DNA from: Lachnospiraceae bacterium NK4A179
GTDB taxonomy: Bacteria > Bacillota > Clostridia > Lachnospirales > Lachnospiraceae
Assembly: GCA_000421045.1 (NCBI GenBank)
Contig: ATWC01000006.1
Location: 1-64,000 of the forward strand
Length of the DNA stretch: 64,000 nt
Direction: 5' to 3'
The notes below the pieces were generated by a model, which was not told where the DNA came from, ran no database searches, and was given only the letters and a program-made list of their open reading frames with translations. Positions 42,487 to 61,884 of the stretch are shown here, in pieces. The first letter of the stretch is position 1. Every line of letters begins with the position of its first letter. The position numbers and the translations under genes are program-made.

Positions 42487-43850
42487 AGAAAGCGGTGCGC
42501 CTTGCAGCATGCGTAATATTTTATCTGCTCTTTCTTTTGGCTGACGGTGCGGTGCTTGGAGCTGACAGCAGAGGCTATATAGAGATGATCGCGGCCAGGG
42601 AGCCGGTCTATCCTCTTTTCCTTGCGGCTTTCAGATGTCTGTTTAATAACGGTGCAGAACTCTTTGCTGCCGCATTCATACAGTCGCTGCTGCAGGGATT
42701 AGCTGTGTTTTTAACTGTTGATTATGTAAGAGAAAAGTTTCAGGTGTCTCTTGTTCCGGAGATACTTATGTATCTTACACATGCGGGAGCTGCACTGCTC
42801 ATACGCTTTGCATCGGAGAGAGGAGCTGTCTTTTCGACGATGATAATGACAGAGGGAATAACAATGTCTCTCTGGCTGATCTTTATGGTACTGCTATTTA
42901 AAGCAGTGTATTCGGAAAAGTACCGTGATCTTTACCGGGTGCCGTTATTGCTTGCTATCATGTTCGATACAAGGAAGCAGATGGCAGCAGGATATGTGAT
43001 ATTTGTGATCGTTATTTTTTTCACGGGTATCAGGCGTTTTGAAAAAAAGAAATGGCTTAAGAGAACTGCTCTTGCTCTCGGGCTTTCGATGCTAAGCATC
43101 ATTGTGGCTGTTGCGGGTACAAGGCTTTACAATCTGATGCTTCGCGGTGAGTTTGCACAGAACACAAGAGACATGAACCTTGTGCTCACAACCACTCTTT
43201 ATGTCGCAGATGAAGATGACGGAAGGCTTATCGATGATCCTGCTGCAAAAGAGGTCTTTGATGAAACGGTTAAAAGCCTCAAGTCAAGCGAGAGCAACAT
43301 AAGCTTTGCTCCCTCTGATCTTTCCGGGCTTGCAGAGCATTATGAAGAACATTACGACGTGATAACGATAGATACCACCAAGGATCTGTTTGAAGATAAT
43401 GCCGTAAAAAGAGGCTTTGCACCGGGAATGGAAGCACAGAAGGAAGCCGACAGGATGTCTGCAGTGATAGTTAAAAGTCTTATGGCAGATAATCTGACCA
43501 AATATATGAAGATATATGCGGCATCGCTTCTTACCGGCTTTGTGAATACGATCGCACACAGGAACAGGTTTTTGAATATTGTGGCATTTGCATTATATGC
43601 GGCATATATATTTATGCTGATAAAGTGCTATAGGAAAAAAGAATTAAGGGATACAGCCGATACAGCGCTTACGGTGCTCATTGCGATCGCAGTGAATACC
43701 GGAGTTACTGCGGCGGTGATATTCTGTCAGTCGCGTTATATGATTTACAACATGGCGATCTTTTACATGTTGTTTATACTGATGGGATTTAATTTGTGGG
43801 GATCCGGGTTTAAAAATGAAGGCATTAAAAGACATAATAAAAAAGCTTGA
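42483..43850 (+). CDS. Multispanning membrane protein, GT-C glycosyltransferase candidate
   Basis: A 455-residue protein with about ten helices. The first outer loop, VLGADSRGYIEMIAAREPVYPLFL, has the D-S-x-x-Y and R-x-P-x-YP pattern that is common in GT-C enzymes of polysaccharide loci. A hydrophilic loop of about 120 residues lies before the last helices. Its start overlaps the preceding DPM1-like gene (ATGA), so that enzyme probably makes its lipid-linked donor. Confidence 0.7.
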   Translation: MKKAVRLAACVIFYLLFLLADGAVLGADSRGYIEMIAAREPVYPLFLAAFRCLFNNGAELFAAAFIQSLLQGLAVFLTVDYVREKFQVSLVPEILMYLTHAGAALLIRFASERGAVFSTMIMTEGITMSLWLIFMVLLFKAVYSEKYRDLYRVPLLLAIMFDTRKQMAAGYVIFVIVIFFTGIRRFEKKKWLKRTALALGLSMLSIIVAVAGTRLYNLMLRGEFAQNTRDMNLVLTTTLYVADEDDGRLIDDPAAKEVFDETVKSLKSSESNISFAPSDLSGLAEHYEEHYDVITIDTTKDLFEDNAVKRGFAPGMEAQKEADRMSAVIVKSLMADNLTKYMKIYAASLLTGFVNTIAHRNRFLNIVAFALYAAYIFMLIKCYRKKELRDTADTALTVLIAIAVNTGVTAAVIFCQSRYMIYNMAIFYMLFILMGFNLWGSGFKNEGIKRHNKKA

Positions 43851-46747: not shown

Positions 46748-47692
46748 ATGGGATTTAAATGGACTTATAAAAGAGCATACTGGAAGGTCAGGAGTTTTTT
46801 GAGCACGCATTTGGGCGTGAGCATTAAGCACAGCTGTTACAATGGCCGGCAGATAATGAGCATAGAAGATACAGGTGCTTATGTTAAAGAAAAACTGCTT
46901 TCAGGTGAGAAGTTTGCGGCAGGACGCATAGGCGGCAGTGAGCTCAAGGTAATGATCTCATTCCAGAGTGAGAATAAAGATATGAAGCTCAGGGAAAAGT
47001 ATCACAATCTTTTGATGCTGCTTTCCGGGTTTTTCGGTGATATGAACGATCTGGAGGATTTTGACCGTCTGATGGAACGTTCTATCGGAAGTATGGATCT
47101 GATGGGTGTATGGTTCAATCAGATGGAGGATGTGATGCTTGAAAGATACGGGGCACCTCATCTGAAATACGGGTTTCTTGAAGGCCTTGAACCCTGGTAT
47201 TGCCCGGACAATCCGTGGAGTGCCGCCCTGAAAGGTAAAAAGGTCCTTGTGATACATCCTTATGCTGAAAGTATAGAGAAACAATACAGGGAAAACCGGG
47301 AGAAGATATTTCCTGGAACAGATATATTGCCTGAGTTTGAACTGCAGACCATCAAGGCAGTACAGACGCTTTATCTGGAGAAGGATGAGCGTTTTGCAAA
47401 ATGGACGGATGCGCTCTATTACATGTGCAAGGAAGCAATGAAAAGAGAGTTCGATGTGGCTCTTGTGGGATGCGGTGCATACGGACTTCCGCTTGCGGCA
47501 TTTCTTGCCGATAACGGAAAGAGCGTGATACATATGGGCGGATCGCTGCAGCTGCTTTTCGGTATAAGAGGAAAGCGATGGGATGAGATGGAACTCTTAA
47601 AGCCCTACTACAGTGATGCGTGGATAAGGCCCTCGGAAAGTGAGAATCTGGGAGGCCGGGAGAAGAATGTTGAAAACGGCTGCTACTGGTAA
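46748..47692 (+). CDS. GT-D fold-like glycosyltransferase
   Basis: A 314-residue protein. FAAGRIGGSELKVM near residue 55 takes the place of the RxGDGE-type motif of GT-D enzymes, and DVALVGCGAYGLPLAAFL followed by VIHMGGSLQLLFGIRGKRW at the C-terminus matches the conserved end of that family (DUF1792-related). These were first described as third-sugar transferases in adhesin glycosylation and are also found in polysaccharide loci. The metal-binding Asp of DGE appears changed here, which is noted as a divergence. Confidence 0.75.
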   Translation: MGFKWTYKRAYWKVRSFLSTHLGVSIKHSCYNGRQIMSIEDTGAYVKEKLLSGEKFAAGRIGGSELKVMISFQSENKDMKLREKYHNLLMLLSGFFGDMNDLEDFDRLMERSIGSMDLMGVWFNQMEDVMLERYGAPHLKYGFLEGLEPWYCPDNPWSAALKGKKVLVIHPYAESIEKQYRENREKIFPGTDILPEFELQTIKAVQTLYLEKDERFAKWTDALYYMCKEAMKREFDVALVGCGAYGLPLAAFLADNGKSVIHMGGSLQLLFGIRGKRWDEMELLKPYYSDAWIRPSESENLGGREKNVENGCYW

Positions 47693-49835
47693 TATCTTTT
47701 CAAAGATTTCTGATATATTCTTCATCCTGGGCATACTCTGCGAATTATACGTGATGCCATCCGGCTATGCGTTTGGGTGGTATCATGAGAAAACATTTAT
47801 CGCAGCGGGTATGGCTTGTTTTTGCGTATCCATAATTTTCTCGATGAATCTGAAAAAGGATTTCCCGGTCTTTGCACTGTTGGCGGCTTATGGCGCCGTA
47901 TGCTACAGATACCAGGGCACGGCACTGGTGCTGCGCATCATACTTGCATTGCTTGCGGGGCGCGACAAGAACAGGGATCGCACTGTGAAGATGTTTTTTG
48001 CGGGAAGTATGTTTGTGATCGTGCTTGCCGCAGTGCTTTCGCTATTAGGCATACACAATTCAGTCATGCAGACTGGAAACACAAGAAGCTTCACCGAGAC
48101 AAGACTCACACTGGGCTTCTATAATCCAAACGGCTTTGCACTCTTTGTATTCAGGACCTATGTGCTGGCAGTGTTCCTTTTGATCACTGCACTTAAGGAT
48201 AAAAAGAAGGGTGTGTTTATAGCTGCTGCAGTTTCGCTTCCGTTCCTGATACTGATACTGTTAAGTCATTCAAAGATGGCGGCTGCGGCTTTTGTGGCAG
48301 TTTTTATTCTTACGATGATATGCATCGGGGTAAAGGGGAAGGCTGCTGATATCACAGCATATGCGGCTTCGCTTGGCGCGGTCATCCTGCAGGTGGTGTT
48401 ACTCATAGTATTCAGATTTCAGCTGCTACCGAAGATGCGCTTTGGAAAGAATGATACTTTTTTTGAAAAGATCAATTCGCTTACAACAGGCCGTCTTATG
48501 ATGACGAAGGCGCTTTTTAAGTCGGCGGTGCCAAGGCCGTTTGGAAGACCTCAGGGTGAGATGGCTCTTACCGAGATGGGATTTGAGAATTCTGCTTTTG
48601 CACAGGGGTATATATTTATTCTGCTTCTGTTGGCATGCATCTTCTGGCTGAGCATCAGGTTTTACAGGAAGAAAGACAGGGCAGGGCTCGTGGTACTTTC
48701 AGCCACAACTCTTTATGCGTTGGCCGAAAGCTATCTTGCATATTTTAACAAGAACTCTATATGGCTTATGATGATAGGTATTTGCGCGGCAGGGGCTGCA
48801 TGCAGGGAAAGGAATGAAATGGGAAAAGACGGAAAGAAAAAGATAAGGATAGATTTTGCCGGCTTCTGGCCTGACTTCAAGAAGGATGACAATTACTTTT
48901 ACAACAGACTGAAGCTTTATTATGATCCCGAGATATGTGACGATCCCGACTATGTGTTCTGCAGCGGTTTTTCGGATGAGCATTTTAAATATATGGACTG
49001 CGTGAAGATATTCTTCACGGGTGAAAATATCATGCCGGATTTTAATCTCTTTGATTATGCGCTGGGTTTTCATTACATAGATTTTGAAGACAGATACTTA
49101 AGGCTCCCGTTATATGCCCTGTATGATAAGGAGAAGATAATAATACCTGCACTTAAGAAGCATACACATGAAGATGAATACTATCTTTCCAAAAAGAAAT
49201 TCTGCAACCGTGTGGTATCCAATCCTTTCGGAGCAGGGGAGAGGGATGAGATGTTTGATAAGCTCTCCGCTTATAAGCAGGTTGATTCCGGAGGACGCTA
49301 CAGGAACAATGTGGGCGGCCCTGTTGATGATAAGATAGCTTTTGAGAGGGATTATAAGTTTACGCTTGCTTTTGAGAATTCTTCGATGAGCGGATACACA
49401 ACAGAAAAGATACTCGAAGCATTTGCGGGTGACACCATACCTGTATATTTCGGAAGCCCAAGGATCAAAGAGGAATTCAATCCGGAATCATTTATAGATG
49501 CGTCTTCCTTTGATTCGTTTGATGAAGTGGTCGAGGAGATAAAGAAGATTGATAATGATGATGAGCTCTATCTTAAGATGATGAAGGCTCCGGCGGTACT
49601 TCCCGAGTCCCAGTCAAAGCCTGTCCTTGAGGATGATTATATAGATGCTTTCCTTAAGAATATATTTGATCAGGATCTTTCAACCGCTAAGAGACGCAAC
49701 ATGGTCTATATAGGGCATGATTATCAGAAAAAATTAAAGGATGCCAATGCGCTGAAGAGAGTTCTTGATGTGGTCAAGAGACCTGTTCATCTGATGCACA
49801 AGATCAAATGGCAGATAACAAGTAAGGATAAATAA
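47667..49835 (+). CDS. Wzy-like polymerase fused to GT10 glycosyltransferase
   Basis: I use the ATG at 47667 (722 residues) with GGGAG just upstream; a GTG at 47640 is also in frame. Residues 1 to about 372 hold about eleven helices in O-antigen polymerase style (ETRLTLGFYNPNGFALFVF, with a long loop before the last helices). Residues 385-722 are a GT10 (fucosyltransferase family) domain: VVSNPFG, the signature YKFTLAFENSSMSGYTTEKI and IPVYFGSP. There is no stop between the parts. An internal ATG (48819) with AAAGGA 5 bases upstream begins exactly at the GT10 domain, so a free GT10 may also be made. Confidence 0.88.
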   Translation: MLKTAATGNIFSKISDIFFILGILCELYVMPSGYAFGWYHEKTFIAAGMACFCVSIIFSMNLKKDFPVFALLAAYGAVCYRYQGTALVLRIILALLAGRDKNRDRTVKMFFAGSMFVIVLAAVLSLLGIHNSVMQTGNTRSFTETRLTLGFYNPNGFALFVFRTYVLAVFLLITALKDKKKGVFIAAAVSLPFLILILLSHSKMAAAAFVAVFILTMICIGVKGKAADITAYAASLGAVILQVVLLIVFRFQLLPKMRFGKNDTFFEKINSLTTGRLMMTKALFKSAVPRPFGRPQGEMALTEMGFENSAFAQGYIFILLLLACIFWLSIRFYRKKDRAGLVVLSATTLYALAESYLAYFNKNSIWLMMIGICAAGAACRERNEMGKDGKKKIRIDFAGFWPDFKKDDNYFYNRLKLYYDPEICDDPDYVFCSGFSDEHFKYMDCVKIFFTGENIMPDFNLFDYALGFHYIDFEDRYLRLPLYALYDKEKIIIPALKKHTHEDEYYLSKKKFCNRVVSNPFGAGERDEMFDKLSAYKQVDSGGRYRNNVGGPVDDKIAFERDYKFTLAFENSSMSGYTTEKILEAFAGDTIPVYFGSPRIKEEFNPESFIDASSFDSFDEVVEEIKKIDNDDELYLKMMKAPAVLPESQSKPVLEDDYIDAFLKNIFDQDLSTAKRRNMVYIGHDYQKKLKDANALKRVLDVVKRPVHLMHKIKWQITSKDK
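48808..48821 (+). promoter_or_regulatory. Internal ribosome binding site and ATG at the GT10 domain
   Basis: AAAGGA (48808-48813) lies 5 bases before an in-frame ATG at 48819 (codon 385 of the fusion). The residues after it (MGKDGKKKIRIDFAGFWPDF) look like a natural GT10 N-terminus, suggesting a remnant or a working start of a once separate gene. Confidence 0.5.
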
Positions 49836-51215
49836 ATGGCTGAAATGATTAAAGAAAAAAAGGAAACTGACCGCAGACTGATAATGCTTGCAATAACGGC
49901 ATTGTTCTTTTTCCTTATGCATCTGACATTTGTGGGATTCACAAATGATGATTATTACTTCAGGATAATGAAGGCGGATCACGGTTCCGTCCTTCAGACT
50001 GTCATATACAGGTACCAGACCGACACCTCGAGGGTGCTTTCGGAAGCTCTGCTTTTCTGCTTTATAGAGCTTCCGTTCATCACATGGCAGATCGCGGATA
50101 CACTAATATGTGTGCTTACCGCTTATGCATCATCTGTCATATTCGGACTTAAGAAGGATGATAAGAGAAATTATCTTATCTTTCTTTTGCTTGCTTGCTA
50201 TCCGTATATGCATATGGGTTCAGCAGGATGGATATGCACGACACTTAATTATATCTGGCCGCTTGCGGCATTCCTATATGGTCTGTCGGTTGTGATGAGG
50301 CGTTACAGGAATGAAAAAGTATCTGGCAATACATACAGGTTTGCACTTATCTGTTTACTGTTTGCTGTTAACTGTGAGCAGTCTGCTGCAGTAGTGACGT
50401 TTGCATTTATACTGGCTTCGGTATTCGCTATCCTGGATAAGAAGAATGCATGGTATGAGATAACAGGTGCCTGCATAGGTATCTTCGGTATCGTATTCGC
50501 ACTTACTTCTCCCGGAAACGGAGCTCGCACCGAGATGGAAGCGGCAAACTGGATGCCGCAGTTTTTCGACCTTACACTCATCGAAAAAGCAAGGTTGTGC
50601 GGGGTGTTCGTATTTGAACACTTTGTCATGGTGCCGTGTGTGATCTTTGCTCTGTTTACGGCAGTGCTCATGTTTGCGGGCTTTGAAAAAGCAAAGGAGA
50701 CTTCCGATAAGAAGAAGCTTCTGTACTTTACTTCTTCGGTTCCTGCAGTGATCGATGTGGCATTTACATCAATGTATTTTGTTAAGGATTTCATCATCGG
50801 GCATAAAAGGAATTATGACTTTACCTTCCCTCCAGTATATATGGATAATCCGCGTGAGGTGTTTGTCCAGCTTTCGGAGATAGCAGCGCTCATTATTTAT
50901 ATCGTTGCCGCATGCTACACTCTCTGGAGGATATTCCCTGAGGTAAGACAGAAGATATGTGCTATATATATGCTTGGTGTGGGCTTTGCCGTGAGGATGG
51001 CACTCATGCTTTCACCGACCATGTTTGCTTCATGGCACAGGGTAATGATATTCCTGTACTTTGCATTTTTGGGAGATTCATATCTGCTTATAGATCTGCT
51101 TCTTAAGAGAAAGAAGAAATGGCAGAAGATCGTCATCATATTAATAATTGCTGCAGGCATAATTGCCAACCTGATACTTACTGTCGGGCTACAGATAAGA
51201 AAACGCGGGATGTAA
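49836..51215 (+). CDS. DUF6056-like multispanning membrane protein
   Basis: A 459-residue protein with about eleven helices. The first outer loop has FTNDDYYFRIM followed by TSRVLSEALLF, then GWICTTLNYIWPLAAF, NCEQSA and TSPGNGAR, an order I associate with DUF6056 membrane proteins of polysaccharide loci. The acidic NDD after helix one is in the GT-C catalytic position, so it may be a lipid-sugar dependent transferase. It starts one base after the previous stop. A run of seven A (49855-49861) is near the start. Confidence 0.68.
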   Translation: MAEMIKEKKETDRRLIMLAITALFFFLMHLTFVGFTNDDYYFRIMKADHGSVLQTVIYRYQTDTSRVLSEALLFCFIELPFITWQIADTLICVLTAYASSVIFGLKKDDKRNYLIFLLLACYPYMHMGSAGWICTTLNYIWPLAAFLYGLSVVMRRYRNEKVSGNTYRFALICLLFAVNCEQSAAVVTFAFILASVFAILDKKNAWYEITGACIGIFGIVFALTSPGNGARTEMEAANWMPQFFDLTLIEKARLCGVFVFEHFVMVPCVIFALFTAVLMFAGFEKAKETSDKKKLLYFTSSVPAVIDVAFTSMYFVKDFIIGHKRNYDFTFPPVYMDNPREVFVQLSEIAALIIYIVAACYTLWRIFPEVRQKICAIYMLGVGFAVRMALMLSPTMFASWHRVMIFLYFAFLGDSYLLIDLLLKRKKKWQKIVIILIIAAGIIANLILTVGLQIRKRGM

Positions 51216-51216
51216 T

Positions 51217-52650
51217 ATGTTATTTACTACACTGGAATATGCATATTTTTTTGCGGCGGTATTTCTGATCTATCATCTGATACCTGAACGCTTCAAATGG
51301 GTCGTACTCTGTGCGGCTTCCGGATATTTTTACTTTAAGGCCGGAGTATATGCTTTTGTATTATTGGCTGCGATATCGCTTGTTTCCTATGCTGGGGCTC
51401 TGCTCATAGACAGGTACAGGAAAAAGAGCGGCATACTGCTTACTGCTTCGGTCCTTATAATCCTTCTTACAATGGCCCTTATGAGGCTTCCGTTTGTTTC
51501 ATTCATCATGCCTCTAGGTTATTCATTTTATGCGCTGCAGTGCATCGCATACATGACTGAAGTGCAGAGAGAAGGCATAGAGGTGATGAAGAATCCTCTG
51601 AAGGTATTCCTGTATGTTTCTTATTTCCCTCATGTGCTGCAGGGACCTTTTGAAGATCCGTCGGAATATATGACAGAATTGTTTGCAGGGCATGGCTTCT
51701 CGTATGAAAAAGCAAGAGAAGGAATGTTAAGGATTCTCTGGGGGCTTTTAAAGAAGCTTGTTATTGCTGACAGGATAGGTTATATCGTTGATCCTGCTTT
51801 TGAGGATCCCGCAGGCTGCACCGGTTTCAGAGTGTTGTATGTTATGGCGCTCTATACCATACAGCTTTATGCTGATTTTTCCGGTTACATGGATATGGCT
51901 ATCGGTTCATCAAAGATGCTTGGCATAGAGATCAGAGAAAACTTTAATGTGCCGTATCTTTCAAAATCCATGGCGGAATTCTGGCGCAGATGGCACATGT
52001 CGCTTGGCCTGTGGTTTAAAGCCTATGTTTTTTATCCGGTGCTCAGGACAAAGCCATGCGCAGCACTACGCACACATTTTAAGAAAAAGAAAAACAGATA
52101 TCTGATGAACACACTGCCCACGGCTGTGGCACTCACAGTCAACTGGACGCTTATCGGGCTGTGGCATGGTTTTGATGCCAACTATCTTGCCTATGACTGG
52201 TTCTGCGGTGCAGTGATCATTCTTTCCGAGTTTCTAAAACCTGTTTATGACAAGATCAACTCTTCATCAAAGTTTTTTAAGAGCAGCTTCTGCGACGGAC
52301 TCAGAGTCATCCGTAATTTTGTTCTTGTTATGTTTTCGTTCATGTTTTTCAGACCTGCAACTTTGCAGGATTCATTCACGCTTATGGGCAATGCATTCCA
52401 TGGAATGAATCTCATGCAATGTCTGCAGATGGCTTATAATGTGAACAGCTATGATCTGTTTCTGATAGTGGTGCCGCTTATTATGCTGATAGTGGCTGAT
52501 GTGCTTAAGTACAAAGGGAAAGATCCTGTCACACTTAGCGCAAAGGCACCCACAGCAGTCAGATGGGCGGTTTATATCATTCTCATACTTATGATTTATA
52601 TCGGAAAAGGCGACAGAAGCGTTCCGGGACCTGCATATATCGTCTTTTAG
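51217..52650 (+). CDS. MBOAT-family membrane O-acyltransferase
   Basis: A 477-residue protein with about eleven helices: LFTTLEYAYFFAAVFLIYHLIP start, SFYALQCIAYMTEVQ, YFPHVLQGPFEDPSEY, ADFSGYMDMAIG, FWRRWHMSLGLWFKAYVFYP and LIGLWHGFDANYLAYDW with the active-site His at 317. It belongs to the AlgI/DltB group, which passes an acyl group across the membrane to an outside acceptor. DltB takes its acyl group from a carrier protein, and the genes downstream (FkbH-like, ACP) suggest that this one may do the same with a different acyl group. Confidence 0.93.
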   Translation: MLFTTLEYAYFFAAVFLIYHLIPERFKWVVLCAASGYFYFKAGVYAFVLLAAISLVSYAGALLIDRYRKKSGILLTASVLIILLTMALMRLPFVSFIMPLGYSFYALQCIAYMTEVQREGIEVMKNPLKVFLYVSYFPHVLQGPFEDPSEYMTELFAGHGFSYEKAREGMLRILWGLLKKLVIADRIGYIVDPAFEDPAGCTGFRVLYVMALYTIQLYADFSGYMDMAIGSSKMLGIEIRENFNVPYLSKSMAEFWRRWHMSLGLWFKAYVFYPVLRTKPCAALRTHFKKKKNRYLMNTLPTAVALTVNWTLIGLWHGFDANYLAYDWFCGAVIILSEFLKPVYDKINSSSKFFKSSFCDGLRVIRNFVLVMFSFMFFRPATLQDSFTLMGNAFHGMNLMQCLQMAYNVNSYDLFLIVVPLIMLIVADVLKYKGKDPVTLSAKAPTAVRWAVYIILILMIYIGKGDRSVPGPAYIVF

Positions 52651-52659
52651 GGAGGTATG

Positions 52660-54378
52660 ATGGCAACTTTTCTTGAACTGAAAAAGAATCTGAAAAAAGA
52701 TATGACAGGGCTTAAGCCTTTTAAGATGGCTGTGCTCGGTGACTGTGCAACGCAGCACTTAAGCCAGGCACTTCGTGGTGAAGCATATGAAAGAGGTATC
52801 GCACTTTCTGTTTATGATGCCGATTATGATGAGATAATGGCGCAGATAACAGATCCCTCATCGGAGCTTTATGACTTCGCTCCTGAAGCTGTGCTTATTG
52901 TCATGTGCACGGAGAGGCTTTATTCGGATTATTGCAGAACTGAGCTTGCAGAGAGAAAGAACTTTGCCGATAACAGGATAAAGCTTATCACCTCGCTTTG
53001 GGACAGGCTTCTTTCAGTTAAAGGGATTAAGGTGCTTCAGCCTGATCTTCCTGAAGCAGATGACGGTATATACGGAAATTTCGGACTCAAATATGAAGAT
53101 TCATTTATCTATCAACAGCGCAGATTAAACTTCCTGCTTATGCAGGAGAGTGCGGCGCGCGCATCCGTATCGCTAATTAATCTGAGCATAATAAAGTCAG
53201 AACTTGGAAATGCATTCAGGGATGACAAGATGTATTTTGCGGCAAGGATGCCATTTTCCATGGAAGCACTGCCGCGCATAGCAGCGTCTGTAATGAATAC
53301 GGTCGACAGTGCACTGGGACGCATAAGGAAGTGTGTTGTGCTAGATCTGGACAATACCTTATGGGGTGGCGTGATAGGAGATGACGGACTCTCCGGTATC
53401 GAAGTGGGAGAGCTCGGTACGGGCAGAGCTTTTCATGAGTTTCAGACCTGGCTTAAGGAACTTAAGAACAGAGGCATCATACTTGCAGTATGCAGCAAGA
53501 ATAATGAGGATACTGCAAAGGAACCTTTTGAGAAGCATCCCGAGATGGTCCTTAAACTTGATGACATTGCATGCTTCATTGCCAACTGGGATGATAAGGC
53601 AACTAATATCAGAAAGATTCAGAGCATACTGAACATAGGCATGGACAGTCTTGTGTTCATTGATGACAACAGATTCGAACGTGAACTGGTTCGCAGTATG
53701 ATACCTGAGATAACAGTGCCTGATATGCCGGAGGATCCTTCTTCCTATGTACCTTATCTTAAGAGCCTTGGACTTTTTGAAACTACGGGTATCAGTGCAG
53801 AAGATGCCGGCAGGACAGAGAAATACAGGGCTGAGGCAGAGCGTGTTAAAGCAATGGACAGCTTTGCGGATTACAGCGAGTATCTTAAAAGCCTGGAAAT
53901 GAAGGCTGTTGCCGCACCGTTTGATGAGTTTCATTTCCCGAGGATCGCGGAACTGTCACAGCGGTCCAATCAGTTTAATCTTAGGACTGTGCGTTATCAG
54001 ACCGGAGACATAGAAAAGATGTCTTCGGATGATTCTTATATCACTCTGTATTTTACACTTAAGGATCGCTTTGGCGACCATGGCCTTATCAGCGCAGTGA
54101 TCATGAAAAAGCTGGAGGACAGGGTATTCGTTGATACATGGTTTATGAGCTGCAGGGTGCTCAAGCGCACGATGGAAGAGTATATCATCAATTCCATGGT
54201 AAAAGCTGCAGCTGATGCCGGCTATGACCTGATTGAAGCAGAGTATATACCCACAGCCAAAAACAAAATGGTCGCCGACATCTATCCAAAGATGGGCTTT
54301 AAAGAAATGCAGGATGAGCCCGGTCATTATCTTGTGAAGCCGTCAGAATTTAAACCGCTGGTGACTTATATAAGCTGA
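52660..54378 (+). CDS. FkbH-like HAD-IIIC protein (glyceryl-ACP synthase type)
   Basis: A 572-residue protein; ATG 52660 is preferred over the adjacent ATG 52657 because GGGAGG (52650-52655) would otherwise touch it. N-terminal domain with an SGNH-like AVLGDCATQHLSQAL; HAD domain with DLDNT at residues 229-233 (VVLDLDNTLWGGVIGDDG), AVCSKNN and FIDDN; C-terminal GNAT-like domain ending YIPTAKNKMVADIYPKMGF. FkbH proteins load 1,3-bisphosphoglycerate as a glyceryl group onto a stand-alone acyl carrier protein. An ACP gene lies 1.5 kb downstream beyond the LysR gene, and the MBOAT just before could use the product. Confidence 0.93.
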   Translation: MATFLELKKNLKKDMTGLKPFKMAVLGDCATQHLSQALRGEAYERGIALSVYDADYDEIMAQITDPSSELYDFAPEAVLIVMCTERLYSDYCRTELAERKNFADNRIKLITSLWDRLLSVKGIKVLQPDLPEADDGIYGNFGLKYEDSFIYQQRRLNFLLMQESAARASVSLINLSIIKSELGNAFRDDKMYFAARMPFSMEALPRIAASVMNTVDSALGRIRKCVVLDLDNTLWGGVIGDDGLSGIEVGELGTGRAFHEFQTWLKELKNRGIILAVCSKNNEDTAKEPFEKHPEMVLKLDDIACFIANWDDKATNIRKIQSILNIGMDSLVFIDDNRFERELVRSMIPEITVPDMPEDPSSYVPYLKSLGLFETTGISAEDAGRTEKYRAEAERVKAMDSFADYSEYLKSLEMKAVAAPFDEFHFPRIAELSQRSNQFNLRTVRYQTGDIEKMSSDDSYITLYFTLKDRFGDHGLISAVIMKKLEDRVFVDTWFMSCRVLKRTMEEYIINSMVKAAADAGYDLIEAEYIPTAKNKMVADIYPKMGFKEMQDEPGHYLVKPSEFKPLVTYIS

Positions 54379-54409
54379 GTGATCAAAGAAATTCTCCAAA
54401 GTTTTTTTG

Positions 54410-54438
54410 TTGACTAAAAATATATATAAAAGTATAAT
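54410..54438 (+). promoter_or_regulatory. Promoter of the LysR gene
   Basis: TTGACT (54410-54415), a 17-bp spacer and TATAAT (54433-54438): an almost perfect sigma-A promoter. Transcription should begin near 54445, giving a leader of about 47 bases with AAAGGAG (54475-54481) before the ATG at 54492. A run of seven T (54402-54408) lies just upstream but without a clear stem. Confidence 0.88.
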
Positions 54439-54491
54439 CGCCTTATTTTACAGACGACCCAATTTCACACTCTGAAAGGAGAATTTGACCG

Positions 54492-55427
54492 ATGACTATT
54501 TTGCAGCTTAAGTATGTGATAACCATTTCAGAAACCGGGTCATTAAATAAGGCATCAGAGATACTGTATGTGTCGCAGCCTTCACTTACAAGTTCTGTAA
54601 GAGAGCTTGAGAGTGAACTTGGTATAACCATTTTTATCAGGACCGGCAGAGGTGTGACCCTTACCAATGACGGACAGGAATTTATCCAATATGCCAGACA
54701 GCTGATATATCAGTATGATGTGCTTCTGGATAAATACGGTGAAAAGGGTAAATATAAAAAGAAATTCGGAGTGTCTACGCAGCATTATTCTTTTGCTGTG
54801 AAATCCTTTGTTGAAACGATCAAACATTTCGGGACCGATGAGTATGAATTTGCGATCCGCGAAACAAGAACTAAAGAAGTGATCGATGATGTGGCTAATG
54901 GAAGAAGTGAGATAGGCATACTCTATCTGAATGATTTTAACAGAAAAGCCATAACCAAGTTTTTGAAATCAAAGGATTTGGAATTCTATCATCTTTGCAA
55001 TTGCGGTGCATATGTCTTTCTGTGGAAAGGGCATCCCTTAGCCGGTTACGACAAGATCACATTTGAGGATCTTAAGGATTATCCCTGCCTTTCATTCGAA
55101 CAGGGTGCCGAAGGATCATTTTATCTGGCGGAGGAAATATTAAGTACCGCAGAGTATCCGCAGGTCATCAAGGCAAACGACAGGGCTACAATGCTCAATC
55201 TTGCGGCAGGTGTGAATGGCTATACATTATGCTCCGGCATAGTCTGCGAGGAATTAAACGGCGATGATTATATGGCCATCCCTTTTGATGCCGGAAGTGA
55301 CGCAGTGGGCAGCAGCATGGAGATCGGATACATCGTTAAGAAAAACATGATACTTAGCAACGTGGGAAGGTTATATACCCAGGAGTTAAACAAGTATCTT
55401 AAAGAAAGCGGCAAAACTGACGTATAG
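54492..55427 (+). CDS. LysR-family transcriptional regulator
   Basis: A 311-residue LTTR. The winged helix-turn-helix is at residues 1-60 (TILQLKYVITISETGSLNKASEILYVSQPSLTSSVRELE), followed by a linker helix and two periplasmic-binding-protein-like subdomains (about 90-300). It has its own strong promoter and is oriented with the glycan genes instead of divergently. A T-N11-A dyad at its 3' end sits at the usual distance from a downstream promoter, so it probably controls the small gene and perhaps the ACP module after it. Inducer unknown. Confidence 0.95.
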   Translation: MTILQLKYVITISETGSLNKASEILYVSQPSLTSSVRELESELGITIFIRTGRGVTLTNDGQEFIQYARQLIYQYDVLLDKYGEKGKYKKKFGVSTQHYSFAVKSFVETIKHFGTDEYEFAIRETRTKEVIDDVANGRSEIGILYLNDFNRKAITKFLKSKDLEFYHLCNCGAYVFLWKGHPLAGYDKITFEDLKDYPCLSFEQGAEGSFYLAEEILSTAEYPQVIKANDRATMLNLAAGVNGYTLCSGIVCEELNGDDYMAIPFDAGSDAVGSSMEIGYIVKKNMILSNVGRLYTQELNKYLKESGKTDV

Positions 55428-55438
55428 TCTGAAACTAT
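55424..55438 (+). promoter_or_regulatory. LysR-type operator (T-N11-A dyad)
   Basis: ATAGT-CTGAA-ACTAT is a perfect dyad of the LTTR T-N11-A form, overlapping the LysR stop codon. Its centre (55431) is 66 bases upstream of the predicted start (about 55497) of the promoter at 55462-55490, the classical recognition-site position for LTTR activators. Confidence 0.65.
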
Positions 55439-55461
55439 AACTGAATATATATCGGGATTAT

Positions 55462-55490
55462 TGGACAAAGCCATAGGCGGTTAGCATAAT
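55462..55490 (+). promoter_or_regulatory. Promoter downstream of the LysR gene
   Basis: TGGACA (55462-55467, 5 of 6), a 17-bp spacer and CATAAT (55485-55490, 5 of 6). It reads towards the small frameshifted gene at 55536, whose AAGGAG site is at 55522-55527. Confidence 0.65.
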
Positions 55491-55535
55491 TAGCTCATAA
55501 AAAACGGCGATAAGCTTCTTGAAGGAGATAAGAAA

Positions 55536-55753
55536 ATGAGCGAAGAATTGGCAACCAGACTGGCACGCGAAGCGGAAAAAGTTACGGATTTATCGCTTCT
55601 CTTATCAAATGCAGCGTATATATATATTTCGGCAAGAAAGAAGAGGCTATGAACCTGTTAAATTCGGTTAAGCCCATGGCATCATCACCTGTCTATAAGC
55701 CGCAATACAGGATGTGTGAGGAAGAATACAGGAGAAAATTCGGGGATATTTAA
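55536..55753 (+). pseudogene. Small gene (about 71 residues if repaired) with a TA-repeat frameshift
   Basis: AAGGAG (55522-55527) lies 8 bases before ATG 55536. The first frame reads MSEELATRLAREAEKVTDLS and on through NAAYIYI, then leaves frame and stops at 55650-55652 after 38 residues. A second frame continues smoothly from YFGKKEEAMNLLNSVKPM to RRKFGDI and the TAA at 55751-55753. The switch falls in a (TA)5 run (about 55608-55617). Removing one TA restores a single 71-residue protein with a charged, helical look. I do not recognise it. It may be a recent pseudogene, a phase-variable gene or a sequencing error. Confidence 0.65.
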
Positions 55754-55790
55754 GAACGTCCCTGTGGCCTAAAATATGCACATTGGATGT

Positions 55791-55813
55791 GGGACTGTCG
55801 ATGCGACAGTCCC
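55791..55813 (+). terminator. Strong hairpin, terminator-like, before the ACP operon
   Basis: A perfect 10-bp stem GGGACTGTCG / CGACAGTCCC with an ATG loop, followed by TATTATTT, a T-rich but imperfect tail. It would end or attenuate the transcript of the small gene. Its right arm overlaps the -35 region of the next promoter. Confidence 0.65.
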
Positions 55814-55831
55814 TATTATTTATGGTATAAT
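55803..55831 (+). promoter_or_regulatory. Promoter of the ACP operon
   Basis: GCGACA (55803-55808, 4 of 6), 17 bp, then TATAAT (55826-55831) preceded by TG one base upstream (extended -10). Predicted start about 55838, with GGAGGT (55860-55865) before the ATG at 55870. Confidence 0.75.
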
Positions 55832-55869
55832 AATGCAGTTAAGGATTTAGTAAGTTTGCGGAGGTGAAA

Positions 55870-56112
55870 ATGAGCAGGGAAGAAATACTCGAAAAGGTCA
55901 ATGAAGTGTTCAGGGAAGTGTTTGAGGATGACAGTATCATCGTTAAAGATGAGACTACTGCCGATGACATAGAAGACTGGGATTCCCTTATGCATATTAC
56001 GCTTGTTTCCGAGATAGAAAATGCCTTCGGTTTCAAGTTCAAGATGAAAGATGTAGTGGGCATGAAGAATGTCGGTGAAATGCTGGATATCATCAAGGAG
56101 GCAGTCGGATGA
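55870..56112 (+). CDS. Acyl carrier protein
   Basis: An 80-residue four-helix ACP starting at the ATG at 55870, with GGAGGT 4 bases upstream (a GTG two codons earlier is in frame but overlaps the site). The phosphopantetheine attachment motif is EDWDSLMH, with Ser39 in DSL. The protein is strongly acidic, as usual. It overlaps the MaoC gene by 4 bases. A dedicated ACP in a glycan locus, near FkbH-like, MaoC, SDR and MBOAT genes, argues for a carrier-bound acyl group made for glycan decoration, not for fatty acid synthesis. A phosphopantetheinyl transferase is not in the window. Confidence 0.93.
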   Translation: MSREEILEKVNEVFREVFEDDSIIVKDETTADDIEDWDSLMHITLVSEIENAFGFKFKMKDVVGMKNVGEMLDIIKEAVG

Positions 56113-56525
56113 ACCACTACACTATCGATGAACTTAAGATAGGTATGACTGAATCCTTCACTGTTCAGGTGACAGAGGATATGCAGGAAAAGTTCACTGA
56201 GGTGAGCGGCGATACCAATCCCATGCATATCGATGAGGAATATGCCAAAAAACATGGCTTTGACGGCAGGCTTGTTTATGGCATGCTCACAGGGTCGCTT
56301 TATTCAAGGCTTGCAGGCGTTTATCTTCCCGGGGAGCATTGTGTGCTTCAGGAAGTGAGAGCACGTTTTCACGCTCCCGTATATATAGGAGAAACTCTTA
56401 CGGTGATGGGCACTGTGGAGGAACAACATGAAGCAGTACGTACCATAAAGATCAAAGCCGTGATCATTAACGAAAACGGAAAGAAAGTTTCCAGTGCCAC
56501 GATCACAGCACTGGTGAATGAATGA
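56109..56525 (+). CDS. MaoC-family (R)-specific enoyl hydratase/dehydratase
   Basis: A 138-residue single hot-dog protein. The hydratase motif FTEVSGDTNPMHIDEEYAKKHGF carries the catalytic Asp35 and His40 (D-x4-H), as in PhaJ-type (R)-hydratases, and VYGMLTGSLYSRL follows. It should add or remove water on an acyl thioester, here most likely held by the ACP encoded just before it. It sits between ACP and SDR genes, with 4-base overlaps on both sides, so all three are probably made in step. Confidence 0.93.
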   Translation: MNHYTIDELKIGMTESFTVQVTEDMQEKFTEVSGDTNPMHIDEEYAKKHGFDGRLVYGMLTGSLYSRLAGVYLPGEHCVLQEVRARFHAPVYIGETLTVMGTVEEQHEAVRTIKIKAVIINENGKKVSSATITALVNE

Positions 56526-57247
56526 TGGAAAAGCAGACATGGCTTATCATAGGCGCATCTTCGGATGTGGGAGTCTCATATATCAGACACCTGGCAGATA
56601 AGGGCACTGACGGGCTTACTATCTATGCTCATTGCAACAGCAGGGTGTCACGTTTTGATGAGATAAAAAAGGATCATCCGGGCCTTGATATAAAGACGCT
56701 TAAGGCTGATCTTAAACTCAAGTCAGACCGTGAAAGGCTTATGGATGAAGTGTCAGACATAGAGCCTAACAGATTCGTATTTCTTCCGGCAGCGGGATTT
56801 GAGTATATGAGATTAAAGGATCTGGATACTGTAAGGCTTGAGGACGGATTTTCAGTTCAGGCAGAGAGTTTTCTGATGCTTTCTTCAAAAGTGCTTCCTG
56901 CCATGAAGAAGACGGGATTTGGAAGAGTGGCTGTAATGCTTACGGAATATACTACAGATGATCTTCCACCGAAATTTATGGCTGATTATATAACCGCAAA
57001 GTATGCGCTTCTTGGGGCCATGAAGGCCTGCGCTGCTGAATACGGCGGAGATAAGGTAAAGATAAACGGTATTTCTCCGTCCATGATGGACACATCGTTT
57101 ATAAACGCACTGGATGAGAAGATAAAGGAGTTAAACAGGATGAAGGCAGGCAGACTGCTTGAACCTTCCGATCTGTTTCCTGTGCTCGATGAGTTATTAT
57201 CTGCGGAATGTGATAAGAACGGCTGCAACATAAGGATCACGGCATGA
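56522..57247 (+). CDS. SDR-family oxidoreductase (ketoreductase-like)
   Basis: A 241-residue short-chain dehydrogenase: WLIIGASSDVGVSYIRHL is the nucleotide loop, FLPAAGFEYM replaces the NNAG motif, and DYITAKYALLGAMKA has the catalytic Tyr and Lys. The usual catalytic Ser before it is not obvious (MLTEYTTDD, where Thr may serve). C-terminal INGISPSMMDT is standard. A FabG-like role on an ACP-bound beta-keto or hydroxy acyl group fits the neighbours; a nucleotide-sugar or other small-molecule reductase is the alternative. Confidence 0.88.
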   Translation: MMEKQTWLIIGASSDVGVSYIRHLADKGTDGLTIYAHCNSRVSRFDEIKKDHPGLDIKTLKADLKLKSDRERLMDEVSDIEPNRFVFLPAAGFEYMRLKDLDTVRLEDGFSVQAESFLMLSSKVLPAMKKTGFGRVAVMLTEYTTDDLPPKFMADYITAKYALLGAMKACAAEYGGDKVKINGISPSMMDTSFINALDEKIKELNRMKAGRLLEPSDLFPVLDELLSAECDKNGCNIRITA

Positions 57248-58476
57248 CAAAGGCTGCATTTTTATTCAATGAACCGGAAGCATCAGGCATGGACCTGAGT
57301 GCTCCCGAGAATGGAAATCCGGGCGCGGGCGGCACTGCCCTCTGCTTTGCTTATGTTATCAAAGGTCTTGATGCAGATTCTGATATAAAGGTTTATGCCA
57401 TGCAGGATACAAAGCTTTCCTGCAGAAATATCATGAGAGTAAAGGATGAGGCTGAAGCCTTTGCCGATGCGGAAAAGAACGGCTATAGCGTTTTTATCTT
57501 AAGAGGCCATCAGAAGCCTGAAGTAATAAATGAACTTCAAAAATATGACCTTAGATATATCTTCTGGATGCACAACAGACTTACTTATGAGGAGATATGT
57601 TTTTTCAGAAGCTGTGAAAAAGTAAGACGTGTGCTGGCTGTGGGTCGTGAGATGTATGACTTCTACATCGATGACAATGTATCTGACAAGCTTGATTATG
57701 TGACAAACCCTTTTGTTCCGTCACCGGAGATGAAGGCTATAAAGCTTTCGGGCGAGAAGGGCATATGCTTTGTGGGCTCTCTTATCCCGGATAAGAATTT
57801 CCATATGCTTGCAGAAGCCTGGCCACAGATAAAAAAAGAAGTTCCCGATGCAAGGCTTCATGTGATAGGAAACGGAAAGCTTTATGACAGGGATGCACAT
57901 CTTGGTCCTTATGGTCTGGCAGAGAGTGGATATGAAGCTTCTTTCATGAAGTATCTTACCGATGATGAAGGTAAGATCGATAAGGCTGTAGTTTTTCACG
58001 GGATAATGGGCAGCGAGAAAACGGATGTTTTCAGGCAGTGCGCAGTGGGCGTCATAAACCCTATGGGTACGGAAACTTTCGGGCTGGCAGCTGTCGAGAT
58101 GGAAGCATGCGGGCTTCCCGTTGTAAGCCGCATGAAGCTTGGGCTTCCTGATGCAGTCATTTCAGGAAAGACGGGAATACTTATCAGGAAACCGGCTGAA
58201 CTTGCAGGAGCGCTGATACTGCTTCTTACAGATGATGCCGGAAGGAAGAAGCTTTCATTAAATGCAGTTAAATATGCATCTGAAGCATTTCTTCCGGAAA
58301 AAGCCGTTAAGGGATTTAAACGTGTGATAGGTGAAGTTGAAGAAGACAAACCTGCAGCGTACAAAAAGCCTGTTGGAAATATGGGCAACAATAATAAACG
58401 TGTGAGACGGATATTTCACGGACTTCATAAAGCCGTGAAAAAATTACCTTCCGTTCATGATATTCAGAAAAAGTAA
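57244..58476 (+). CDS. Family 4 glycosyltransferase
   Basis: A 410-residue GT-B enzyme. The acceptor domain contains PGAGGTALCFAYVI and YIFWMHNRLTYEE; the donor half opens ICFVGSLIPDKNFHML and has VGVINPMGTETFGLAAVEMEACGLPVVSR. A basic C-terminal tail (KKPVGNMGNNNKRVRRIFHGLH) may bind the membrane. ATGA overlap with the SDR gene. Confidence 0.88.
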   Translation: MTKAAFLFNEPEASGMDLSAPENGNPGAGGTALCFAYVIKGLDADSDIKVYAMQDTKLSCRNIMRVKDEAEAFADAEKNGYSVFILRGHQKPEVINELQKYDLRYIFWMHNRLTYEEICFFRSCEKVRRVLAVGREMYDFYIDDNVSDKLDYVTNPFVPSPEMKAIKLSGEKGICFVGSLIPDKNFHMLAEAWPQIKKEVPDARLHVIGNGKLYDRDAHLGPYGLAESGYEASFMKYLTDDEGKIDKAVVFHGIMGSEKTDVFRQCAVGVINPMGTETFGLAAVEMEACGLPVVSRMKLGLPDAVISGKTGILIRKPAELAGALILLLTDDAGRKKLSLNAVKYASEAFLPEKAVKGFKRVIGEVEEDKPAAYKKPVGNMGNNNKRVRRIFHGLHKAVKKLPSVHDIQKK

Positions 58477-59476: not shown

Positions 59477-60463
59477 ATGGAAGACCTGATCAGTGTAATA
59501 GTGCCCGTTTACAGGGTGGAAAAATACATAATAGACTGCGTTCGGAGCATCATCCATCAGACCTATACCAATCTGCAGATCATTCTTGTGGATGACGGTT
59601 CTGATGATAACTGTCCCGGACTCTGCGATAAATTTGCTCTTGATGACAGCCGTATCGAAGTGATACACAAAAAGAACGGCGGGCTGTCGTCGGCCAGAAA
59701 TGCCGGCATTGAGAGGGCTTATGGTGCGTGGATCCTCTTTGTTGATTCGGATGATTTCATTGCAGTAAACATGATAGAGAAGCTCGCGGATATCGTCGAT
59801 AAAACAGGTGCTGATATTGCTGTCTGTGATTATGAGCAGATACCCGAAGGCAGGAAGTTCGACATCATCAGACGTGAGGAAGTCGATGAAGTGAAAGTGC
59901 TTGGAACGTTTGATGCCGAAGCAAGATTCTATGAGCCCGGACGAATGGGACAGTGTATGGTCGCATGGAACAAGCTGTACAGGAAGAACCTCTTTGATAA
60001 AGAGGGAATCCCTGTCAGGTATCCTGTGGGTAAGATATTTGAAGACGGGTTTACGACCTATAAGCTGGTATACAATGCTTCAAAAGTGGCCTTTACGGAT
60101 GAAGTGCTTTATTTCTACAGACAGAGAGGCGACAGCATAATGAGCAGGAATGGCGGCAGAAACTATGCTGCAGCTCAGGAAGCCGGTATAGGTAAGCTGG
60201 ATTTCTTCAGAGGCAGAGGAGAGATGGAACTTTTCAAGATGCAGTTAAACTCAGAGATACACAATTGTATTCATTTTTATGAGGCTGCTTCCGAAAAGGA
60301 AGACAAACATAATATAAGACAATGGTTTAAAGTTCTGTACTGGGATTATTTCAGGAATGAAAAGTGGCCCTTCGGAAAACGTGTGAGGATGAGGGCGTTT
60401 GAACTCGGCTATCTGCCTTATAAGATAGTGAGTTCTTTTGAAGGGCTTTATAACAGGTTATGA
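59477..60463 (+). CDS. Family 2 glycosyltransferase
   Basis: A 328-residue GT-A enzyme: LISVIVPVYRVEKYIIDCVRS, IILVDDGSDDNCPGLCD, KNGGLSSARNAGIE and FVDSDDF, followed by KIFEDGFTTYKLVY with the catalytic-base segment. This is the EpsJ/WaaV-like pattern common in Firmicute exopolysaccharide loci. It overlaps the priming transferase gene by 4 bases, so it may add the second sugar, which is inference from position. Confidence 0.92.
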   Translation: MEDLISVIVPVYRVEKYIIDCVRSIIHQTYTNLQIILVDDGSDDNCPGLCDKFALDDSRIEVIHKKNGGLSSARNAGIERAYGAWILFVDSDDFIAVNMIEKLADIVDKTGADIAVCDYEQIPEGRKFDIIRREEVDEVKVLGTFDAEARFYEPGRMGQCMVAWNKLYRKNLFDKEGIPVRYPVGKIFEDGFTTYKLVYNASKVAFTDEVLYFYRQRGDSIMSRNGGRNYAAAQEAGIGKLDFFRGRGEMELFKMQLNSEIHNCIHFYEAASEKEDKHNIRQWFKVLYWDYFRNEKWPFGKRVRMRAFELGYLPYKIVSSFEGLYNRL

Positions 60464-61884
60464 ATCATATCTATAAAAAGACAAATGTGATAAAGACATA
60501 TATGCTGCTTCTTATAGAAGCGGTCACTCTTGCCCTGTCATTAACCGCAGCGGTGTTTACAAGATACGGCTGGATGAGTGCTGACGGAAACGGCGAGATC
60601 TATATCATCTTCGGCATCATGGAAGCCGGACTTATCTTTTTGTACTCAACCATAACAGACTGGAACAGGGACTTTTTTATACGCGGTTATTTCAGGGAAG
60701 CGATGGCCGTGATGAAATGTCTTGGTTCAACAAGCGCTTTCTCGGCGCTGTTCATGTACATTCTTTTAAAGGACCGGCCGATGTCACGAACCGTGTTCTT
60801 TATTTATCTGCCGCTTGTTATGGTACTCACATATATGTTCCATCTGATCTTTAAGGAATATATGCTTAAGTATTACAGGAAGGGTGTGGGCAGTGACAAG
60901 CTTATGATAGTCACCACATCAGACAGGGCGGAAAAGGTTATCGACAGGGTAAAGCATTCCAAGGAATGGAATTATGAAGTGACCAGTGTCGTTATCATGG
61001 ATAAAGACATGAAGGGCAGCACCATAGGCAACGTCCCGGTCATAGCAGGCGCTGATGATATGATAAGCGAAGCTACGAAAAATATAGTGGACAGGGTATT
61101 CATATCACTTCCTTCGGATGTGCCTATCAAGGATATAAGAAATACCATTTATGAATTTGAAAACATGGGCGTTGTCTGCCATTATGATGTGGGCCTTGAG
61201 GACTTGAAACTTGCAGGTCAGGAGGCAGGCACCTTTGCGGGCTATGCCGTGCTTTCTTTTTCGCTGCAGAATCTTGATTACAGAAGACTTATGATCAAGC
61301 GTCTTATGGATATATTGGGAAGCATCGTAGGAATGTTAATAACCATCATCATGTTTCCGTTTGTGGCGATCGCGATAAGACTTGAATCCAAAGGCCCTGT
61401 TATCTTCAAACAGGAGCGCATCGGAAGGAATGGAAGACATTTTAAGATGTACAAGTTCCGCTCGATGTATGTTGATGCGGAAGATAAGCTTTCGGATCTT
61501 AAAGATAAGAATGAAGTGAAGGGACTTATGTTCAAGATGGATGATGATCCACGTATAACCAAGGTCGGACGTTTTATCAGAAAAACGAGCATAGATGAAT
61601 TCCCGCAGTTCTTCAATATCTTTAAGGGCGATATGTCAATGGTCGGGACAAGACCGCCTACCGTTGATGAATATGAGCAGTACAATGCGCATTACAGAAG
61701 AAGGCTTGCGCTCACACCGGGACTTACGGGCCTGTGGCAGGTGAGCGGCAGAAGCGATATCACGGATTTTGACGAGGTGGTAAAGCTGGATCTTGAATAT
61801 ATAGATAACTGGTCGCTTTCACTGGATCTTAAGATACTGCTTAAAACCATTGGCGCTGTATTTACCGGAAGGGGGTCAAAGTAA
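60460..61884 (+). CDS. Polyprenyl glycosylphosphotransferase (priming enzyme)
   Basis: A 474-residue membrane enzyme. Four N-terminal helices, a central Rossmann-like domain (KLMIVTTSDRAEKVIDRV), a fifth helix (residues about 280-305) and a bacterial sugar transferase domain: PVIFKQERIGRNGRHFKMYKFRSM, KTSIDEFPQFFNIFKGDMSMVGTRPP and LTPGLTGLWQVSGRSD. It transfers a sugar 1-phosphate from a UDP-sugar to undecaprenyl phosphate, starting repeat-unit synthesis. Its place near the end of the visible locus, after about 50 genes, is unusual since priming genes often sit near the front. Confidence 0.95.
   Translation: MNHIYKKTNVIKTYMLLLIEAVTLALSLTAAVFTRYGWMSADGNGEIYIIFGIMEAGLIFLYSTITDWNRDFFIRGYFREAMAVMKCLGSTSAFSALFMYILLKDRPMSRTVFFIYLPLVMVLTYMFHLIFKEYMLKYYRKGVGSDKLMIVTTSDRAEKVIDRVKHSKEWNYEVTSVVIMDKDMKGSTIGNVPVIAGADDMISEATKNIVDRVFISLPSDVPIKDIRNTIYEFENMGVVCHYDVGLEDLKLAGQEAGTFAGYAVLSFSLQNLDYRRLMIKRLMDILGSIVGMLITIIMFPFVAIAIRLESKGPVIFKQERIGRNGRHFKMYKFRSMYVDAEDKLSDLKDKNEVKGLMFKMDDDPRITKVGRFIRKTSIDEFPQFFNIFKGDMSMVGTRPPTVDEYEQYNAHYRRRLALTPGLTGLWQVSGRSDITDFDEVVKLDLEYIDNWSLSLDLKILLKTIGAVFTGRGSK

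Follow-up and report, generated by a model that had tools for sequence, protein, structure and literature searches.

A 64,000-nucleotide stretch of contig ATWC01000006.1 from Lachnospiraceae bacterium NK4A179, called the window below, encodes at positions 51217-57247 an MBOAT O-acyltransferase, an FkbH-like protein, an acyl carrier protein (ACP), a MaoC-type dehydratase, and a short-chain dehydrogenase/reductase (SDR). The last four genes constitute a real conserved cassette, FkbH-ACP-MaoC-SDR, which is probably functional, while the MBOAT is an exchangeable last step. We consider it likely that the cassette supplies a three-carbon acyl group. This agrees with the original prediction, made from the DNA of the window alone, a three-carbon unit being the expected product of FkbH and ACP.

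The five open reading frames (ORFs) named in that prediction are all present, on the + strand, and each matches its family. The MBOAT (51217-52650), proposed to perform the final transfer, scores 47.5 bits against PF03062 (cut-off 27) and carries His317 in the motif GLWHG, a histidine found in 12 of 12 aligned MBOATs. The FkbH-like protein (52657-54378), a proposed glyceryl-ACP synthase and the sole match of its family in its own genome, scores 187 bits against FkbH_N (PF21211, cut-off 27) and 294 bits against TIGR01686 (curated cut-off 146.65). Its layout comprises the N-terminal FkbH_N domain, a HAD-IIIC region with DLDNT, and the conserved Cys499 in MSCRV; D230 and D232 occur in 51 of 54 aligned sequences and C499 in 52 of 54, the remainder being gaps or X. 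The ACP (55870-56112) scores 26.2 bits against PF00550 (cut-off 20.8), and the serine of its DSL motif is kept in 80/80. To judge from the sequence, the ATG at 55870, preceded by GGAGG, is a more likely start than the GTG at 55864 with which the ORF opens. The MaoC-type (R)-hydratase/dehydratase (56109-56525; PF01575, 74.5 bits, cut-off 27) bears the motif G-D-x-[NS]-P-x-H, with Asp35 in 80/80 and His40 in 79/80, and the solved structures that it matches best in sequence are 3-hydroxyacyl-thioester dehydratase 2 and an (R)-specific enoyl-CoA hydratase. The SDR (56522-57247; PF00106, 59.5 bits, cut-off 26.6) is a FabG-like ketoreductase. A profile of six such SDRs finds 3-oxoacyl-ACP reductases as the nearest solved structures, and Tyr156 and Lys160 are present in 68 of 70 sequences, the other two being gapped.

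With a seven-row MaoC alignment as the pattern, a scan of 84,980 species genomes yielded 90 stretches, of which 82 are relatives, and the best 80 loci were kept. The ACP gene adjoins that of MaoC in 77 of the 80, and FkbH lies within 4 kb in 51; an SDR is found in 67, a count that takes in a weak match of 41 bits in L143 and another in L114, truncated where the contig stops. All five genes occur together in seven loci (L072, L119, L123, L125, L126, L136, and L151, the last from Lachnospiraceae bacterium NC2008). The order FkbH-ACP-MaoC-SDR is kept from Lachnospiraceae to Gemmiger, Faecalibacterium, and other named metagenome-assembled genomes. Because gene order is preserved in such distant genomes, chance is excluded as its source, and a reading of the genes as five unrelated neighbors is ruled out by the conservation of the cassette. 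Distance matrices for the four proteins correlate positively (r 0.35-0.59, values reached in no more than 14 of 2000 permutations, for 24 thinned loci of 42), a correlation of which shared descent could be the source.

FkbH scored above cut-off in 42 of 200 genomes of the window's own family. From 39 of these came 40 FkbH loci, with G087 and G097 left out and the window itself as the 42nd genome. In these 40 loci plus the window, ACP and FkbH are at most 500 bp apart in 33/41 and an MBOAT is found within 3 kb in 20/41; MaoC lies within 4 kb in 7/41 and a cassette-type SDR in 6/41. The FkbH-locus and MaoC-locus counts are not additive, because the two sets share records (L140 and L058, for example).

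Two side observations concern members of the MaoC set. A contig binned as a Pacearchaeota archaeon carries the four genes in the same order (L150:6052-9156); misbinning is possible, and its scores (47 bits for ACP, 144 bits for MaoC) fall below the bacterial ones. In L107 (6422-7765) and L141 (6265-7590), a DUF4910/M28-like protein, recognized by family scan in the former and by homology in the latter, is encoded directly upstream of ACP-MaoC.

Where whole genomes were searched, cassettes without a nearby FkbH gene occur in genomes that have one. FkbH is missing within 4 kb in 29 of the 80 MaoC loci; genome-wide searches covering 18 of these 29 found FkbH in 18/18, in 17 above cut-off and in L079 as two pieces below it. 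L073 and L132, judged by local DNA only, have FkbH farther off in the same retrieved DNA, L097, judged likewise, has none in its retrieved DNA, and eight others fall outside the count. We then compared whole genomes, with cassette-type MaoC defined by a gap in scores. In the window's own family (200 genomes, 199 genera counted), where the gap runs between at least 160 and at most 111 bits, FkbH exceeds its cut-off in 12/12 genomes with cassette-type MaoC vs 30/188 others (Fisher p 1.8e-9). In a second family, to which a Gemmiger genome belongs (148 genomes; 156 vs 103 bits at the gap), the figures are 28/28 vs 29/120 (Fisher p 1.2e-14, inflated because these genomes are close kin). Pooled, they become 40/40 vs 59/308 (p 1.5e-25). 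Where all MaoC matches of a genome fall below the gap, FkbH exceeds its cut-off in 4/16 cases in the own family and 1/6 in the second. Because the score limit was chosen after the gap was seen, and because of the kinship within the second family, the own-family p-value is the safer figure. The claim that the gene set is a functional unit is thus upheld by conserved co-occurrence and by dependence on FkbH even in trans. The check for co-occurrence in other genomes proposed in the original prediction favors FkbH, ACP, MaoC, and SDR and does not extend to the MBOAT.

The pathway that we propose begins with FkbH, which would take a D-glyceryl group from glycolytic 1,3-bisphosphoglycerate, remove the phosphates, and load the group onto the ACP. 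MaoC would eliminate the 3-hydroxyl of glyceryl-ACP to give the enol of pyruvyl-ACP, and the SDR would reduce the 2-keto group of pyruvyl-ACP to yield lactyl-ACP. The MBOAT would then pass the acyl group across the membrane, where an SGNH protein encoded in trans may assist in esterifying it to the operon's polysaccharide. We infer what the substrate and the acceptor are, in which order the steps run, that lactyl is the product, and what the SGNH protein does, the lactyl-ACP route following from the reaction logic of MaoC and SDR acting on glyceryl-ACP. Confidence and doubt are about equally balanced for lactyl as the end product, and we hold the pathway as a whole, from three-carbon acyl-ACP to transfer by MBOAT and trans SGNH protein, with the same even measure of belief. 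The conversion of glyceryl to lactyl by dehydratase and ketoreductase activity has a precedent in polyketide starter modules. That FkbH proteins load glyceryl from 1,3-bisphosphoglycerate is described in the available parts of PMC7489565 and PMC8949500. A table in the accessible portion of a paper on a pathway-reconstruction tool lists the FkbH loading product as D-lactate-ACP (PMC7901079), citing a paper on the FR901464 cluster that in its title calls glycerate the starter unit; as far as that portion goes, giving the entire conversion to FkbH alone is a simplification.

Several genomic observations bear on this chemistry. In L123 a single 389-residue protein is a natural MaoC-SDR fusion, which suggests that the two enzymes catalyze consecutive steps. 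Among the 13 loci counted without an SDR, L103 and L133 end just past MaoC, L147 has an SDR match about 2 kb upstream, and L073, L097, L132, and L135 have an aldo/keto reductase instead. The aldo/keto reductase family appears near the cassette in exactly four of the 80 loci, all four among the 13, an overlap with a chance of 4.5e-4 if the loci were independent, which they are not, three of the four sharing one operon plan. Because the family is confined to SDR-less loci, one ketoreductase seems to replace another. As a side observation, L073, L097, and L132 combine MaoC and aldo/keto reductase with split transketolase genes near an MBOAT, FkbH-ACP being present in L073 and L132, and L130 has a transketolase pair too. 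On a 40-row FkbH tree, linkage to MaoC is scattered (6 changes for 7 rows vs a shuffled mean of 6.7), and hence FkbH probably loads the same unit whether or not MaoC and SDR accompany it, the latter pair being an add-on. Another candidate add-on is a VOC protein, which 8 of the 40 loci encode no more than 1 kb from FkbH (a ninth lies about 2.9 kb away on the other strand) and which none of the MaoC loci among these 40 has. The VOC proteins of L040 (10487-10897) and L143 score 70 and 80 bits against methylmalonyl-CoA epimerase (cut-off 114.95); a protein of this kind might be a glyceryl-ACP epimerase, inverting the configuration at the alpha-carbon. It points the same way as MaoC plus SDR, toward a common FkbH-ACP with varied tailoring.

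The transfer step is more variable than the supply of the acyl group. Transfer by the window's MBOAT seems somewhat probable to us. Its gene ends 6 bp before that of FkbH, and on a tree of MBOATs it forms a three-row clade with those of L033, from the same genus, and L072 (support 100/100), all of which adjoin this cassette. The genome has 8 MBOATs in total, and the 20-row group that includes the window's holds none of the 7 others; 34 of the 41 rows on this tree come from FkbH or cassette loci, so that its sampling is biased. FkbH-linked MBOATs do not form one group (11 changes vs a shuffled mean of 12.8). The original prediction treated the MBOAT as a fixed member of the set, a view that does not survive the comparison: 69 of the 80 MaoC loci have none within 8 kb, some contigs ending sooner, and 28 encode a different candidate transferase. 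This protein of about 330 residues has no Pfam match and usually follows the SDR directly, mostly in Gemmiger and its kin. The count of 28 may be too low, because an ORF on the opposite strand was called close to this position in 15 more loci. A structural model for the family (L095:9156-10148 and homologues) from a 23-row alignment reached a pLDDT of 92.2. Foldseek matched it to the double-GNAT protein Eis2 and to N-myristoyltransferases (best E 1.6e-10, TM-scores about 0.4-0.5), and we call it double-GNAT-like; these loci carry it in place of the MBOAT.

Where an MBOAT is present, an SGNH-like protein usually accompanies it. Of the 11 MBOAT loci, 9 have one, L073 and L125 being the exceptions; seven of the nine built the profile and match it by construction, and L123 and L129 are independent. 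In the window and the 20 kb that follow it, the SGNH profile matches nothing. A homologue 45% identical to the NC2008 protein is encoded in the window's genome on contig C3 beside uvrC, with no adjoining MBOAT within the 17 kb read, and a different MBOAT of the genome (L158) has a second SGNH match as its neighbor. The sensible reading of these sequences is that the window's MBOAT would work with an SGNH partner in trans. The model of the SGNH partner is poor (mean pLDDT 60), and its best matches include GDSL/SGNH hydrolases at a weak E of 5e-4. Next to an SGNH gene in the window's genome we also noted a 910-residue protein (L172:8659-11391) that carries a YidC-like domain (PF02096) and weakly matches sulfatase/phosphodiesterase families; it has no full-length match in the same-genus genome G004.

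A number of observations weigh against the proposed pathway, besides the post hoc score limit and the kinship within the second family mentioned above. An MBOAT lies within 8 kb in just 11 of the 80 MaoC loci, some contigs ending sooner. No reductase was recognized in six loci where MaoC stands with ACP, with or without FkbH: L107 and L141 have neither an SDR nor FkbH in cis, and in L116, L130, L131, and L137, which contain FkbH and ACP and enough DNA, no SDR match lies nearby. FabG-type SDRs normally reduce 3-keto rather than 2-keto thioesters. The window's SDR, moreover, has Glu at position 142, where the catalytic Ser usually stands (Ser in 58 of 70), with Thr141 directly before it; the same-genus copy in L033 has Lys at this position. 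A FabH-like ketosynthase adjoins FkbH in L143. Finally, not every FkbH domain is active, to go by the accessible text of a study of oocydin synthesis, in which one FkbH domain lies within a module predicted to be non-functional (PMC4552970).

Some of these points would suit other readings. The cassette might make a three-carbon acyl-ACP that serves intracellularly to modify a nucleotide sugar or a lipid-linked sugar, with the MBOAT as an independent acetyltransferase of the same operon. The double-GNAT-like protein, which occurs in none of the 11 MBOAT loci, is consistent with such a use, as are the seven other MBOATs of the genome and the lack of an SGNH match nearby. We nevertheless judge it rather unlikely, given the 6 bp between MBOAT and FkbH, the proximity of the two in about half of the FkbH loci (20/41), the clade of window, L033, and L072 MBOATs lying entirely beside this cassette, and the lack of a GNAT among the ten window genes (46748-58476) that were scanned against family libraries.

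Two further readings keep the acyl-ACP and change its chemistry. A fatty-acid ketosynthase acting in trans might extend the FkbH-loaded unit, with the SDR as beta-keto reductase and MaoC as dehydratase, to give a longer hydroxyacyl or enoyl chain. The resemblance of the two enzymes to FabG and (R)-hydratases would fit, the genome encodes both FabH and FabF, and L143 has its FabH-like gene beside FkbH. With the genome's own FabH and FabF as queries, however, a ketosynthase is matched in 1 of the 80 MaoC loci, in 1 of the 41 FkbH loci (L055), and nowhere in the window, which bears out the earlier statement that none is visible there and makes chain extension quite improbable. Ordinary fatty acid synthesis genes are ruled out by the missing ketosynthase together with the dependence on FkbH. 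Alternatively, the SDR might act as a dehydrogenase, the end product being pyruvyl-ACP or an oxidized glyceryl derivative comparable to the 2-hydroxy-3-oxopropionyl-ACP of the methoxymalonyl pathway, in which glyceryl-ACP is oxidized at its primary hydroxyl according to the available part of PMC7489565. The lack of the canonical Ser in the window's SDR and some cassettes that have MaoC and no SDR match are in keeping with this. Yet oxidation of the 3-hydroxyl would leave MaoC idle, although MaoC and SDR are fused in L123, and the aldo/keto reductase is confined to SDR-less loci (4/4); we regard this outcome as very unlikely. Reduction to lactyl-ACP is the reading that we retain.

The window lies within contig C6 (119,728 bases) of a genome of 3.22 Mb, and all genes judged real between 41.5 and 63.6 kb are on the + strand. 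The surrounding operon is a polysaccharide operon of a Lachnospiraceae-like genome. Some of its glycosyltransferases were recognized by family scans and others by eye; it also encodes an ABC transporter (43816-45606, +, by eye) and an exopolysaccharide polyprenyl glycosylphosphotransferase (60460-61884, +, above the TIGR03025 cut-off). A 731-residue protein (47640-49835) joins a membrane-embedded N-terminal half, Wzy/ligase-like by eye, to a C-terminal GT10 fucosyltransferase half (PF18025, PF00852), an apparent polymerase-transferase fusion. An Rfam scan of the window gave no match.

Between FkbH and ACP lies a complete LysR-type regulator gene (54492-55427, +; PF00126, PF03466). A search with its protein matches nothing in either set of loci (40 with FkbH, 80 with MaoC), and the regulator is therefore ruled out as a member of the cassette. 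Since ACP, MaoC, and SDR follow FkbH directly in the same-genus locus L033 as well, we view the regulator as an extra of the window's genome. Downstream of it, a frameshifted short ORF remnant can be read from the sequence (about 55537-55753, +). Upstream of ACP there follow a hairpin (55791-55813, +) and a promoter-like site (55803-55831, +), both weak and resting on consensus matches: promoter-like sites in the region number 13 vs 15.6 in shuffles, terminator-like ones 9 vs 5.3, and the 23-base hairpin is absent from the 170 loci compared.

More broadly, and tentatively, the cassette may belong to a widespread, undescribed system of glycan lactylation, in which a mobile cassette is paired with interchangeable transferases, MBOAT plus SGNH protein outside the cell and double-GNAT inside, to form esters or amides on the glycans of gut bacteria. 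Its core would be FkbH-ACP, and its tailoring would be by MaoC with SDR or aldo/keto reductase, by the epimerase-like protein, or by the split transketolase, a scheme about which we are equally tentative. If correct, this would be an ACP-based route of glycan decoration beyond D-alanine and acetyl, supplied directly by glycolysis, and a polyketide starter-unit trick carried over into glycan biology as a set of individual enzymes. Common gut genera (Gemmiger, Faecalibacterium) carry the cassette, and its conserved gene set makes the acyl group directly testable in cultured strains.

The Dlt system D-alanylates teichoic acids by passing a small acyl group from an ACP to the MBOAT DltB. The locus shares this logic, as originally proposed, with a small acyl group carried on an ACP (PF00550, Ser in DSL), a DltB-like MBOAT, and, in relatives, an SGNH-like protein beside the MBOAT. 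It is not a member of the system: the MBOAT scores 154.4 bits against TIGR04091, well short of 375, the cut-off for DltB, and the ten scanned neighbors include no DltA-type ligase, the search not extending to the rest of the window or genome. A true Dlt operon is ruled out by the DltB score. The acyl group, moreover, would here be made by FkbH chemistry and is D-alanine in Dlt, and the SGNH-type (DltD) partner is represented by a homologue on another contig. AlgI/AlgX and PatA/PatB, which O-acetylate polysaccharides, likewise pair an MBOAT with an SGNH protein, but the donor proposed here is an ACP-bound three-carbon acyl group rather than acetyl. Butyrivibrio is known for 1-carboxyethyl ethers. 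A link to these was considered and dropped, since an ACP thioester gives esters or amides, not ethers, and the literature search gave nothing.

That search, which largely lacked subscription papers, found no description of an FkbH-ACP-MaoC-SDR cassette and no joint mention of FkbH and O-antigen. Among the papers on FkbH and polysaccharides, as far as their available parts go, Campylobacter alone concerns a glycan locus, and those of PMC4875605 and PMC10143770 have no bearing on the cassette. In the flagellin glycosylation locus of Campylobacter jejuni lies cj1302, a gene with an fkbH domain, and the organism makes dimethylglyceric acid derivatives of pseudaminic acid; the accessible text states no link between the two and mentions no MaoC/SDR cassette (PMC7099621, PMC3958885). 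With cj1302 in a glycosylation region, the use of FkbH on glycans may be not wholly new. In the tetronate and methoxymalonyl-ACP pathways, stand-alone FkbH and ACP make glyceryl-ACP as they would here (PMC7489565, PMC4979870, in the parts available); there, FabH-like condensation, or dehydrogenases and a methyltransferase, follow, whereas here MaoC, SDR, and a membrane acyltransferase do. In its chemistry the cassette is closest to the FkbH starter modules of polyketide synthases such as that of FR901464, in which FkbH loads a three-carbon unit from 1,3-bisphosphoglycerate onto a carrier. Bryostatin reportedly also has an FkbH-based starter module. Unlike these modules, the cassette consists of separate proteins encoded in a polysaccharide operon with no ketosynthase, and MaoC and SDR take the place of the dehydratase and ketoreductase domains.

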